Of a stretch of DNA of 21,632 nucleotides, positions 3,246 through 19,920 are shown in pieces. Position numbers and translations under genes: made by a program. Origin of the DNA: a virus; IMG/VR virus record IMGVR_UViG_3300045997_000045, positions 1 to 21,632 of that record; one strand, 5' to 3'. The notes under the pieces are model-generated. The model searched no databases, had not been told where the DNA came from, and saw nothing but the letters and a program-made list of their open reading frames with translations. Position 1 is the first letter of the stretch. The number at the start of each line of letters is the position of its first letter.

Positions 3246-3541
3246 GCCCTCAGCTCCCCTCCGGTCAGGTCCTCAAACTCGATGTCGAGTTTCCGCTTGG
3301 TGGCCGGATGTGAGCCCGGCCGGCGCCGGCCGACCAGCCGGTTGAAGATCATGCCGCGTGCGGCGTTGGCCCTGGCGGCGGCACCGCGCTCGTCGGAGTT
3401 GGCGTTGTTGGCGATCTCGAACAGGGTGCGCACCACCAGCTCGTGGGTGGGCAGGGAGATCAGGTCGTCGGTGGTGATCTCCGGGTTGTCCGCCACCATC
3501 TGCATCGCCTGCCGGATGGTGACCACACGCTTCAGGCCCAT
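3242..3541 (-). CDS. Unknown 99-aa helical protein overlapping terminase end
   Basis: ATG 3541 lies ten bases inside the end of the terminase gene (TATGGGCCTGA) and gives MGLKRVVTIRQAM. The protein is helical: a first part with DNPEITTDDLISLPTHELV, a middle with NNANSDERGAAARANAARG, and a basic stretch RLVGRRRPGSHPATKRK before an acidic end. The TDDL-x-x-LPTHELV segment looks like a small helical module and the basic stretch could contact nucleic acid. A small terminase subunit would normally precede the large one, so this downstream place makes that role only a weak possibility. It is translationally coupled on both sides. Confidence 0.7.
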   Translation of the reverse strand: MGLKRVVTIRQAMQMVADNPEITTDDLISLPTHELVVRTLFEIANNANSDERGAAARANAARGMIFNRLVGRRRPGSHPATKRKLDIEFEDLTGGELRA

Positions 3542-4992
3542 ACCGCGCTCCAATCCTCCTCGTACGACACCGACTGGGTGCGCTGCCCGGAGTGGTCGAA
3601 AAACTTTCCGTTGAAGAAGTCGAGTTCCTTCACCGCCTGCACCGCGTACCTCAGCGCGTCCATCATGTGGCTGTACTTGTCGTGCATCGGCTGCTGGGTC
3701 CACATCTGCAGCCGGGTGTTGAACTCGTACTTGTAGTTCTCCAGGCATTCCAGCAGCCATTGGCAGTTGTCCTCGTGGACGATCGTGTTGTACAGCATCA
3801 TCCGCGTCTGCTGGATGTCCGTGACGATCGTGTAGTCCCCTGATCTCGAGCCGGGGATCTTCCACACCTTGTTGGACTTGGCGAGCACGGCCACGTTGCC
3901 GAACCGCTGCCGCATCATGTCGGCCGGGGTGGTGTTGATGGCACGCTCGTGATGCTCGCCGTCCCACGGAAGGATCAGTGAGGAGATGCGGTTGAACCAC
4001 GGCTTCACCTGCAGGTCGTCCACGTACTCGGGCAGCGCCTTGCCGTGCCCCTCACCGCAGTCGAACAGGAACAGCCGGCCGTTGATCCACTGGAACGCCA
4101 CCCACGATGTGGCGTCGGACTGGATACCGGAGGAGCCGATGTCGAAGGCGACGTAGACCGGATGGCCCTGGTCGAGATTGAAGTTGTGGACCCTCTTGTC
4201 CTCGACCATCTTCATGTACGCCTCGCCGTACACAGCAGCGGCGTCCATCTCCTCGAACGAGCAGTAGTATTCCTGCTCGAACATCCGGTCATTCCCGAAG
4301 CGTTTCAGGTAGGTGTCCCTGATCCGCTCCAGTTCCTCCTCGGTGAGGACGACGGGCAGACCCTCCCGCTTCATGATGGCGTTGATGTCGTCGATGTCCC
4401 GGGTGATGATCTTCGCCTCGGGGTTGTCCCGCATCGACTCCATCAGCTGCCACAGCGGGTTGCGCCGTTTCCCTCGTGGCGTGGACACGACCATGAGCCG
4501 CTTGTTCTCGGCGCGGTTCTCGAGGATCGGCATGAGCCGGGGGATCGGATCCTCCCGGGTGAACAGCGCCAGCTCGGTGATCGTGTAGTCCTGGAACGAT
4601 GTGCCGACACCGGCCTTGTCCTGGCCGGACTGGAAGTAGCCCTGCAACTTCAGCCGGCTGTGGTTGGCGAACCTGCCCTCCATCACCGTGGCCTTCCAGT
4701 CCACCGCGCCGTCGGGCACGTTGTCCTGCAGACCGCGGATGTACTCGCCCGATGCCGGGTCGATGTAGGTCTTGTCCCAGAGGATGTCGCGGATCATCGG
4801 GTTGGACAGGGAGATGTAGACGCCGGTCGTCTTGGGTGTGCGCAGCCTGGCGTCGCACTGTTCCATCGAGGCTGCGACGTCCTTCCCCGTCTGCCGGGGC
4901 AGCACCGCAATACCGTAACGGTGATTTCGCCAGAGGCGGTGCAGATCCTGCTGGTACGGCCTCGGCTTGTAGTAGACGGGGAAGGACGGCAT
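3532..4992 (-). CDS. Terminase large subunit
   Basis: This 486-aa protein is the DNA-packaging motor: an N-terminal ATPase that docks on the portal and a C-terminal RNase H-fold nuclease that cuts concatemers. The Walker A-type loop is PRQTGKD (32-38). The Walker B region is DYTITELALF, with probable catalytic E140. VVSTPRG (168-174) is the coupling motif. FEQEYYCSF (238-246) is the usual linker into the nuclease, where VAFDIGSS provides metal-binding D284 and MMDALRYAV provides a second acidic residue, D445. The start ATG overlaps the stop of a 25-aa gene (TGATG). It lies at the far end of its transcription unit, with only two small genes after it, as in T7 where the large terminase is also late in the order. 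No intein or frameshift is seen. Confidence 0.95.
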   Translation of the reverse strand: MPSFPVYYKPRPYQQDLHRLWRNHRYGIAVLPRQTGKDVAASMEQCDARLRTPKTTGVYISLSNPMIRDILWDKTYIDPASGEYIRGLQDNVPDGAVDWKATVMEGRFANHSRLKLQGYFQSGQDKAGVGTSFQDYTITELALFTREDPIPRLMPILENRAENKRLMVVSTPRGKRRNPLWQLMESMRDNPEAKIITRDIDDINAIMKREGLPVVLTEEELERIRDTYLKRFGNDRMFEQEYYCSFEEMDAAAVYGEAYMKMVEDKRVHNFNLDQGHPVYVAFDIGSSGIQSDATSWVAFQWINGRLFLFDCGEGHGKALPEYVDDLQVKPWFNRISSLILPWDGEHHERAINTTPADMMRQRFGNVAVLAKSNKVWKIPGSRSGDYTIVTDIQQTRMMLYNTIVHEDNCQWLLECLENYKYEFNTRLQMWTQQPMHDKYSHMMDALRYAVQAVKELDFFNGKFFDHSGQRTQSVSYEEDWSAVWA

Positions 4993-5081: not shown

Positions 5082-5474
<393 letters not shown>

Positions 5475-5487
5475 CTCCGTGATCCTC

Positions 5488-6498
5488 TCAGATCTGTAGG
5501 TTCGGCAATCCTATTGTGCCGAACAGCGTGGAGAAGTCCTCCTTCTCGGCGGACGTGCCTGCTTTGGAGGGAATCCCCGCCTGCGGCTGCTCGGGTGGGG
5601 GTGCGGCCGCAGGCGGGGCAGGGGTCGAGGTGGAGTTCGACCCTTGCACGCTAGCAGCCTCCTGCGACTTTTTCGTGCGCAACGCCTCGATGATCGGCTG
5701 CACCGGGACACTGTAGCCCTGCAGTTTGCCGTCCTTGCGCACCTCGTACGGTTGCGCGATCTTGGCGAACTCGTCTGCCAGCGCCTTGTCGAACGTCTTG
5801 GTACCGGGGATCAGATCGGGGTTGTTCTTGAACAGGTCGACACTGGCGTGCAGCGTGTCGAGGTAGCCGCGGGACTCGTCGAGTTTCTTCTGCGCCTCGT
5901 CGCGGATCTCCTGCACCAGCAGGCCGCGGACGGCCTCCTGCCACTCCTTCGCGTCGTCGCTGTCCTTGAGCCGCTCCATCCCTTCCTCGCCGATGGCCGG
6001 CACCTCGGTGCCCACCAGCAGCCGGGGGTGCTTCTCCAGCGCCTCGAAGTATTTCTCGTAGTCCTTACGCGCCTGGTCGAAGGCCTCCTGCTGGAAGGTC
6101 TTGGTCAGGTTCTCCTCGATGGTGGTGGTCAGCTGGCCCAGTTTCGGGAGGTAGGCGGCGGCGTCGGCTGTCCAATCCGCTGGAAGATCTGCTGGCTGGC
6201 CGGCGGCTGCAGGCTGTTCAGTATCTCCTCCAGCAGCTCCTCCTGGTGCAGCAGGTGCAGGTGCGTTTTCTGCCACTGCTGCTGCTGCAGGTTGTCCAGG
6301 CGCTGCAGGGCTGCCGCCAGTGGAGTCAGCGCCTCCATCAGCAGCATCCGGTTTTGCAGTCGCATCTGCAGCAACAGGCGTTGCTCCGTCTCCCACTGCT
6401 GCAGCGCCTTCTTCTGGCGCCAGTGCGTCCATGAGAGCACCGAACGCAGCGTCTCCCATGTTCGGTAGATCCACGACTTCACGGGTGTCCTCACTCAT
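5488..6498 (-). CDS. Scaffold-like acidic head-assembly protein (336 aa)
   Basis: The N-terminal ~110 residues are disordered and rich in Ala, Pro, Gly, Asp. From about residue 120 (GQLTTTIEENLTKTF) there is a long charged helical region (QEAFDQARKDYEKYFEALEK, then EEGMERLKDSDDAKEWQEAV), followed by FKNNPDLIPGTKTFDKAL and YSVPVQPIIEAL. The C-terminus is again Pro/Ala/Ser-rich and disordered. Acidic, helical proteins with disordered ends near head genes are often scaffolds; this is a role guess from architecture and position, and no protease or capsid gene lies beside it. ATG 6498 overlaps the previous gene by eight bases. Codons in about 6150-6480 end unusually often in A or T, unlike the rest of the gene, and another frame there looks codon-biased (see findings). 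Confidence 0.7.
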   Translation of the reverse strand: MSEDTREVVDLPNMGDAAFGALMDALAPEEGAAAVGDGATPVAADATAKPDAADGGADSTGGSPAAPGQPAAAAVAENAPAPAAPGGAAGGDTEQPAAAGQPADLPADWTADAAAYLPKLGQLTTTIEENLTKTFQQEAFDQARKDYEKYFEALEKHPRLLVGTEVPAIGEEGMERLKDSDDAKEWQEAVRGLLVQEIRDEAQKKLDESRGYLDTLHASVDLFKNNPDLIPGTKTFDKALADEFAKIAQPYEVRKDGKLQGYSVPVQPIIEALRTKKSQEAASVQGSNSTSTPAPPAAAPPPEQPQAGIPSKAGTSAEKEDFSTLFGTIGLPNLQI

Positions 6499-7836: not shown

Positions 7837-8003
7837 AGACCCTCCTAGGTGGTCTACGAGCCGTTACAGGGCTTCTCTGCGCTTCGACCCTACCCCAGAC
7901 CCCGGTGCGCCGGGGGGTGTAGACACTTGTAGACAACGAAAAAAGCCCCCTTTTCTTATATATACACCTCTATAAAGGGGCTTTTTTCGCTGTCTACAAC
8001 TGT
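7837..8003. other. Intergenic region between the two leftward transcription units
   Basis: This is the only sizeable gap on the leftward strand. It holds a ribosome site for the gene at 7836 (7841-7846), a small GC hairpin (CCCCGG/CCGGGG around TGCG, 7900-7915) and most of the large inverted repeat/terminator. A promoter for the next unit is expected between 7847 and 7916 on the minus strand. TAGGGT and TGTAACG are weak -10-like strings, but I see no convincing -35/-10 pair. Confidence 0.6.
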
Positions 8004-17204: not shown

Positions 17205-17806
17205 CAGTAGGCCACCGCCGTCCAGTAGAACTTGAAGGGTGTGAACGACACCAGGCTCGCTTTCGCCGCGTCATGCGACAGGTAGGCGTGGAGGGTGACG
17301 TCACCTGTGGTTCCGTTGACCGCCTCGATCGCCAGCACGGGAACACCGGGTTTCTGCGACAGGTCGACCCCCGTGTTGCACCATGTCACTGTCACCGCCC
17401 AGTTCCCGGTGGGGGATGCCCCGACATTGAAGAAGGCACGGCCGGCGCCGTCGGTAGCACCGCTGAAGAACCCGCCCCTGACACGGTTGATCGGGTGGTA
17501 GCGGGTGTCAGCCACGGCCTGCGTCAGGTCACCGGGAACTCCTTGCGGTCCCTGGATGCCCTGCGCCCCGGTGTCACCCTTCGGACCTGCAGGCCCGACG
17601 GCACCGTCAGCGCCGTCAGCACCGTCAGCACCGTCAGCACCGGCAGGACCGACAGGACCGCGAGGTCCTTCCCGCCCCTGTGCCCCGGTCGGACCGGCGG
17701 TTCCCTGCGGACCCGGCGGGCCTTGTGGGCCGACCGGGCCTTCCGGGCCGGCAGCGCCCATCGGGACGAGCTGGCCGTCCTTCGTCTTGTAGTACATCTG
17801 CGACAT
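17204..17806 (-). CDS. Collagen-like tail fibre, 200 aa
   Basis: After a 16-residue start (MSQMYYKTKDGQLVPM) there are about 26 Gly-X-Y triplets (17-94), including four consecutive Gly-Ala-Asp. These should form a trimeric collagen-like shaft. The rest (95-200) begins DLTQAVADTRYHPINRVRGG and looks like a beta-rich globular head (ATDGAGRAFFNVGASPTGNW; PVLAIEAVNGTTGDVTLHAY), presumably receptor-binding. No strong ribosome site is visible before ATG 17806, which lies four bases after the preceding stop. It is the last fibre before the lysis-like block. Confidence 0.88.
   Translation of the reverse strand: MSQMYYKTKDGQLVPMGAAGPEGPVGPQGPPGPQGTAGPTGAQGREGPRGPVGPAGADGADGADGADGAVGPAGPKGDTGAQGIQGPQGVPGDLTQAVADTRYHPINRVRGGFFSGATDGAGRAFFNVGASPTGNWAVTVTWCNTGVDLSQKPGVPVLAIEAVNGTTGDVTLHAYLSHDAAKASLVSFTPFKFYWTAVAY
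17603..17638. repeat. Four tandem 9-bp units coding Gly-Ala-Asp
   Basis: Four consecutive copies of (A/G)CCGTCAGC, with one A/G difference, encode the consecutive Gly-Ala-Asp triplets of the collagen-like shaft. Near-identity at the DNA level suggests recent expansion. Confidence 0.9.
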
Positions 17807-18961: not shown

Positions 18962-19920
18962 CAGCGCCTCGCCGGAATGATGAGATAACCGGCCTGACAG
19001 TTCCACGCGGTGCGGCTCGTGCCGCTGCCGTAGGGACGTTGAGCACCGACCATGATCGCGGCCGCGCCGCCGTCGGGGAACGGGCCGAACAGCCCCATCG
19101 ACGTATTCATGTACGCCCCGGCTTCGGTGTACGGCAGGGCCACGGCCATGATGATGTTCTTCGTGTCGTCCTGGCATTTCACGACCATGTCCCAGCGGCC
19201 GTCGCCGTTCGCACGGACCAGTTCACCGCGTGCCCACGCCTGGACGTAGAACGGGCCGTACCCGGCCGGTGCGCGAAGGTCTGTGGATAGGAATGTCCGC
19301 CATGTCCCGGCTCCCCATTCCGGCATCTGGTCGAACGAGCCGAGCGACCCACCGATCGCCCCGCCACCACCCCCGGGAGATGTATCCACCCACAGGTCGC
19401 CGTCCTGCACCCCGGTCGGAGCGGTCGCCTGGACATGCACCCGGCCAGCGGGCTTGCCTCTGATGTCGACAGCGCCTTCCATACGGAAGTCCGATTCAAC
19501 CACCCACCGTTGCGCTGTCGAGTCGAAATACAACTCGGCGGTATCCGCATAGGAGGAGTCGGCGTTGCACGGTTTCAGGACGAGCGTGTACCGGGAACCG
19601 CCAGCGCGGATCGAGCCGCCACCTCCGTCAGCGGCACCACCAGCGCCTTGCAGGATGACCTCGTCGCGGACTACCAAATCGCCGGTCATCGTGTCGCCGT
19701 CGACGTTGACGTAGCGGGCGTCAGCCGTGGCGAAATCGACGCTGCCAGCCGGACCTGTGTCGCCCTTCGGGCCTACTTCTCCTTGTGGCCCAGCCGGACC
19801 CTGCGGCCCTGCTGCGCCGTCAGCACCCGGAGGGCCAGCCGGTCCTGTAGCGCCAGGCGCACCGTCAGCACCCGGTGGCCCAGCAGGGCCCCGGATGTTG
19901 GTCTCCTTGTTCCACGGCAT
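18961..19920 (-). CDS. Collagen-like tail fibre, 319 aa
   Basis: The first ten residues ([10 protein letters not shown]) resemble those of the next gene upstream, then ~16 Gly-X-Y triplets run to residue 58. [20 protein letters not shown] follows, a fibre motif also seen in the 171-aa fibre gene. The middle has a [13 protein letters not shown] segment related to the repeats of neighbouring fibres. The last ~120 residues form a separate, probably globular head ([39 protein letters not shown]) ending [10 protein letters not shown]. It starts three bases after the preceding stop (TGACAGATG). Role: trimeric host-recognition fibre. Confidence 0.88.

Follow-up and report, generated by a model that had tools for sequence, protein, structure and literature searches.

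A probable overprinted gene pair with closely spaced twin start codons beside the terminase gene of podoviruses related to Burrovirus and Eekayvirinae

Phage lambda encodes its spanins from the Rz/Rz1 gene pair, in which Rz1 starts deep inside Rz and specifies an outer-membrane lipoprotein. The locus described here resembles Rz/Rz1, both of whose lambda products are functional, in that a larger phage gene carries a small gene inside it, in the +1 frame. Unlike in Rz/Rz1, the two starts lie 4–7 nt apart at the 5′ end, the pair is located beside the terminase gene, and the nested product has no transmembrane-like stretch. Two other groups of systems invite comparison. First, in the overprinted genes of phiX174 and of eukaryotic viruses, as in the pair proposed here, one stretch of DNA encodes two proteins, one of which is largely disordered in the overlap; the present case differs in that it involves a double-stranded DNA phage of ~54 kb, a new protein family, and putative twin-start translation. 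Second, small scaffolding proteins of the phi29 gp7 type are likewise short, largely helical, and found in a virion-assembly setting, but no sequence or fold match to them was found, and the likeness is one of helical content only.

The nested ORF has been annotated in a few genomes. In GenBank, it corresponds to AloeVera gp52, which lies inside gp51 in the only record that marks the nesting, and to TrippleS gp48 and Astartes gp49, where the start of the long gene has been moved downstream. All of these (gp52, gp48, and gp49) are annotated as hypothetical proteins, with family, function, and overlap undescribed. Araxxi gp45 represents the downstream part of the region, and the remaining GenBank records examined (e.g., Akoni, Burro, and MissAmericana) contain the long gene only. 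The accessible text of the cluster EK/Burro paper does not mention the overlap, and a search of the openly accessible literature found no published account of it. Here, we describe the codon signature, conservation, and selective constraint of the two frames, which in our estimate form a genuine overprinted pair with a probability of about 0.93, judging from sequence comparisons.

The nested frame and its codon signature

The window, a 21.6-kb fragment of a virus from IMG/VR, contains the following features that bear on the overlap.

3532–4992 (-): terminase large subunit (PHROG 2, 3.5e-23), used as the anchor for homologous loci
5488–6498 (-): longer overlapping gene ("scaffold-like"), 336 aa, with residues 1–112 predicted to be disordered and ~113–288 folded
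6129–6494 (-): nested gene in the +1 frame (start GTG, stop TGA), with a 121-aa product predicted to form a single long basic helix
6491–7057 (-): preceding gene, ~188 aa, conserved in position, with its stop codon in the twin-start motif
6491–6498 (-): twin-start junction ATGAGTGA, comprising ATG 6498–6496 (long gene), GTG 6494–6492 (nested gene), and TGA 6493–6491 (stop of the preceding gene)

A GTGA overlap between the preceding gene and its own predecessor suggests that the preceding gene starts with GTG. A 130-aa gene (5082–5474, -) separates the long gene from the terminase; within it, the hexamer CTCCGG occurs as nine exact repeats (5226–5279), corresponding to a Glu-Pro repeat. Elsewhere in the window, a hairpin at 7918–8003 (-) (-44.5 kcal/mol, z -9.8) is positioned between a 1185-aa gene and the rest; it has a 26-bp stem, flanking A and T tracts, and TGTAGACA repeats at its base, and is likely a two-way terminator. 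The window's right half has further tandem repeats at 19787–19884 and 17601–17660 (45-nt and 9-nt units).

An initial annotation of the window had proposed an overprinted frame of 121 codons beginning at GTG 6494. This ORF is present at 6129–6494 (-), in the +1 frame within 5488–6498 (-). The same annotation remarked on A/T-ending codons in the scaffold frame and G/C-rich third positions in the nested frame, and both observations are borne out by frame-specific counts. Across the overlap, GC at codon positions 1/2/3 is 0.85/0.64/0.41 in the scaffold frame and 0.64/0.41/0.85 in the nested frame, against a GC3 of 0.85–0.94 in the ordinary, neighboring genes of the phage. The scaffold-frame GC3 in the overlap is 16 SD below that expected for the same protein written with the codon usage of the window phage. 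With the phage's own genes as the reference, synonymous-codon choice in the overlap has a normal z score of -1.3 in the nested frame, compared with -15.3 for the scaffold frame and -10.0 for the third; the scaffold domain, the terminase, and the preceding gene are all within ~1.2 SD. In a six-frame codon scan that makes no use of annotation, the nested frame scores best over 6121–6480 and the scaffold frame scores best on the distal side, over 5461–6180.

Openness of the nested frame is weak evidence on its own, because the frame remains open in 18–26% of cases (probability 0.18–0.26 in the window) when the scaffold protein is held constant and its synonymous codons are redrawn. The initial annotation had cautioned that part of the alternative-frame bias follows automatically from the codons of the scaffold frame. 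This caution is justified with respect to openness, but it leaves the A/T-ending scaffold codons unexplained.

Conservation of the nested frame and its start site

Homologues of the long gene are found in 57 records of Microbacterium podoviruses, i.e., Burrovirus (including Burro gp45) and Eekayvirinae (Akonivirus and Tinytimothyvirus), and in the Arthrobacter phage MissAmericana (gp48). Many environmental contigs with long-gene homologues were reached via the long protein and the adjoining terminase; a scan of genome contigs found no relative. The resulting set of loci covers Burrovirus, Eekayvirinae, MissAmericana, and environmental relatives. The +1 ORF is retained in 154/154 homologous loci with a complete 5′ end, its frame being open along 95% or more of the distance between the stop codon of the preceding gene and the conserved domain. 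These loci include 85 distinct nested sequences, with lengths of 100–159 codons (median 129), and no homologue without the nested ORF was found among them. Two types of homologue had been named in advance as evidence against overprinting: those with a stop in the nested frame and an intact scaffold frame, and those that lack the segment. Neither occurs in any of the 154 loci. The reverse case, a broken scaffold frame, is seen only in the metagenome contig that carries L042 and L128, where a scaffold-frame TGA falls within the overlap (L042:1424–1735) and the nested frame is intact, reading Gln-Asp-Glu at that position. This TGA may mean that the two frames have separated naturally, that the genome is damaged, or that the sequence or its assembly contains an error.

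The codon signature recurs across the loci. GC3 of the scaffold frame is lower in the overlap than in the domain in 75/75 distinct loci, and codon choice is better in the nested frame in 72 of the 75. Sequence similarity among nested proteins also extends across genera. A tblastn search of phage records with the window nested protein gave no match at E<1 because the protein is too diverged, and profile searches were therefore needed. Searched against 11,763 six-frame ORFs, profiles built from the nested proteins of one clade match only the nested ORFs of other clades. The Eekayvirinae profile matches Burrovirus at 7.5e-16 and MissAmericana at 8e-11, and the profile of the window clade matches L035 at 1.2e-31 and more than 40 environmental nested ORFs. 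Each search returned one unlabeled match (L050 and L005), and both are nested ORFs by position. Between these clades, the linker of the long gene is low-complexity Ala/Gly/Pro sequence, which is unlikely to be the source of the cross-genus similarity.

These observations bear on whether a second gene needs to be invoked at all. A low-GC3 linker, an imported segment, RNA structure, or mutational bias could shift codon usage with no gene present; the low-complexity composition of the scaffold linker is in keeping with such an origin, as is the median probability of 0.29 that the +1 frame is open by chance. However, a conserved start, a +1-frame family shared across genera, and frame-specific constraint (see below) are all unpredicted, and we give this explanation almost no credence. 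A foreign low-GC3 insert and a pair of compensating indels, which the initial annotation had listed as alternatives, were also considered and rejected, since different genera share one and the same frame, start spacing, and nested protein family.

The start region is conserved as well. Of 76 distinct sequences, 30 have GTGAGTGA at the junction, 18 have ATGAGTGA, 10 have ATGAGCGA, and 6 have ATGAGTGT, with the rest having close variants; the commonest form is RTGAGTGA. The order of starts is the RTG of the long gene followed by a nested GTG 4 bases on or a nested ATG 7 bases on, and the two starts are separated by 4 or 7 nt in nearly all loci. The stop codon of the preceding gene lies inside or beside the motif at three main offsets, with the start spacing remaining constant. 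A Shine-Dalgarno-like duplex of -5 kcal/mol or better can be formed in 68/74 loci; its window usually ends 2–5 nt before the first start and, therefore, 6–9 nt before the second. Exceptions are Burro (L005), in which the nested frame is open from 15 nt in and starts 28 nt inside the long gene, and L168 and L170, where twin starts were not found. A scaffold-frame start that overlaps the stop codon of the nested gene is found in Akonivirus (L004:3058–3061; likewise in L003, L006, L007, L010, L012, and L022), and this second start could give rise to a shorter form of the long protein without the overlap.

We infer that both starts are used, through coupling to the preceding gene and/or a single Shine-Dalgarno site. 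Ribosomes that finish translating the preceding gene, or that are bound at one upstream Shine-Dalgarno site, could use either start. Initiation at the first start (RTG) would produce the 336-aa protein, whose N-terminal third consists of a conserved motif and then a disordered Ala/Gly/Pro-rich linker. Initiation at the second (GTG or ATG, 4–7 nt on in the +1 frame) would produce a separate, basic, helical protein of 100–159 aa, which would end at the point at which the long protein enters its folded domain.

In every clade, the nested stop lies near the beginning of the conserved domain, which would also be expected if ribosomes began in the nested frame and underwent a programmed -1 slip near its end, entering the domain to make a fusion protein. 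The sequences at the nested stop vary, with no common slippery heptamer among the 38 inspected, and a conserved start and N-terminal motif are present in the scaffold frame itself. Hence, we regard a programmed frameshift as very improbable.

Constraint in both frames

Synonymous sites of the scaffold frame were compared among homologues, as the initial annotation had advised, and are constrained in the overlap. Across 11 closely related pairs, fourfold sites of the scaffold frame differ in 44/824 overlap codons and in 256/1255 codons of the domain (p 8.7e-24); with the preceding gene as the comparison, 148/621 differ (p 6.5e-25 versus the overlap), and these p-values, since related sequences are non-independent, overstate the number of separate events and are to be read as strong rather than exact. 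Variability at these sites is therefore ~4 times lower in the overlap, with the same direction seen at greater divergence, and substitutions in the overlap do not have the usual third-position excess. An OLGenie-style dNN/dNS ratio for the nested frame is 0.47 (0.36–0.60) in close pairs, with a value of 0.69 (0.51–0.93) for a control region. The signal is clear in close pairs only; in distant pairs, the ratio is 0.99 and uninformative, and fourfold-site and phase tests were therefore used. Considered together with the conservation described above, the nested ORF is almost certainly a real gene.

The scaffold frame is also constrained at the protein level. Near the N terminus of the long protein, the motif GDxAFxxLMDxLxPE is conserved, as are residues 13–29 (PNMGDAAFGALMDALAPE in the window), and Phe19 is invariant in alignments of 34 and 45 rows. 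The site at which this residue is encoded is a feature of both frames:

6442–6446 (-): pinned dual-coding site, in which the T of the nested Arg codon CGT (6446–6444) is the first base of the Phe19 codon TTC (6444–6442)

Because the invariant Phe19 needs T as its first base, the nested codon over it must end in T. It does so in 74/74 sequences, although only 7.4% of codons in neighboring genes end in T; where the codon is CGN, it is CGT in 52/52 cases, against 20% usage. Fourfold sites of the nested frame are constrained as well, with 60/678 differing versus 256/1255 free sites (p 1.3e-11, subject to the same non-independence). Constraint is thus seen in each frame, and both frames consequently carry protein-level information.

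An alternative is that only the nested frame is translated over 6129–6494 and that the long gene starts downstream as a tandem neighbor, its N-terminal third being accidental. This is the arrangement chosen by the annotators of TrippleS, Astartes, and Araxxi. It accords with the fit of codon usage to the nested frame, with the start that overlaps the nested stop in some lineages, with the scaffold-frame stop in L042, and with a probability of 0.67–0.70 that the scaffold frame of the window would be open given the nested protein. Over 75 loci, however, the median of this probability is 0.17, yet the frame is open in all but one contig. In addition, a scan that began 15 nt ahead of the nested stop and ran through the first 20 codons of the domain found no scaffold-frame ATG, GTG, or TTG in 56/75 distinct loci, including the window; in those loci, translation of the long protein must therefore begin further upstream, either within the overlap or ahead of it. 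The retention of the upstream RTG in nearly all loci, the conserved motif around Phe19 that forces rare T-ending nested codons, and the constraint on nested fourfold sites are equally at odds with an accidental N terminus. We consider translation of the nested frame alone to be improbable. The overprinting proposed in the initial annotation is strongly supported by the codon signature, by universal conservation, and by constraint in both frames.

The better fit of codon usage to the nested frame (72/75 loci) suggests, as a rule of thumb, that this frame may be older and the disordered N terminus of the long protein newer, although the same codon mark would be expected if the nested protein were simply structured and under tighter constraint.

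Predicted proteins and a possible role in assembly

Structure predictions were based on alignments of the window and related loci, with rows from GenBank phage records left out. For the nested protein, AlphaFold2 predicts one 92-residue helix (residues 4–95; mean pLDDT 87, pTM 0.45). The N terminus of the family is basic, with a median net charge of +10 in the first 40 residues, and members share a common SWxxWRR-like motif, in which S21 and W22 are nearly invariant. Hydropathy periodicity shows no excess over shuffled sequences, and a regular heptad coiled coil is therefore not claimed. A spanin pair of the Rz/Rz1 type was considered and rejected: the nested protein, which is basic and helical, has no signal peptide, lipobox, or transmembrane segment, with a maximum 19-aa hydropathy of 0.78 in the window and 0.23–1.18 over ten nested proteins.

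The long protein is predicted to be disordered to residue 112 and folded from there to ~288, with a conserved C-terminal tail. Within the disordered part, a short conserved helix is predicted with low confidence at residues 16–26, coinciding with the conserved motif. Database searches provide little guidance as to the function of either protein. The nested family has scattered, chance-level matches in Pfam and PHROGs (at most 2/66 members each), its profile has a best E of 0.37 against the PDB, and a fold search with its helix found nothing. For the long protein, there was no PHROG or Pfam match above the cut-off, and a fold search returned its own relatives and generic helical hairpins only; weak hits to a BFVD "scaffolding protein" (E 0.15) and to the P22 scaffold (E 5) were seen. 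The "scaffold-like" label that the initial annotation gave to the long gene is thus established by none of these searches (Pfam, PHROGs, PDB, and fold), and the name is a guess from gene layout because Pfam, PHROGs, and the PDB offer no usable match to either protein.

PMC7302621 describes the location of the capsid gene as unclear. A tentative proposal is that the nested protein forms an elongated, probably oligomeric helix that acts in head assembly or packaging alongside the long protein, with the two being made in a fixed ratio from one initiation site. A broader proposal, which we rate as somewhat unlikely, is that this is a lineage-wide gene family occurring solely as an overprint, with one ribosome-binding site and starts 4–7 nt apart yielding fixed-ratio assembly partners, and with the nested frame maybe the older of the two.

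If the two genes are an overprinted pair, as we favor, a protein is absent from most of the deposited genomes examined, in an entire group of actinobacterial podoviruses for which assembly is not well understood. The locus would also provide an unusually clean natural test of overprinting, with ~120 codons, many divergent homologues, and both frames visibly constrained. The pair is predicted to combine one structured and one disordered product, and it occurs in phages that can be cultivated (Akoni, Burro, and MissAmericana).
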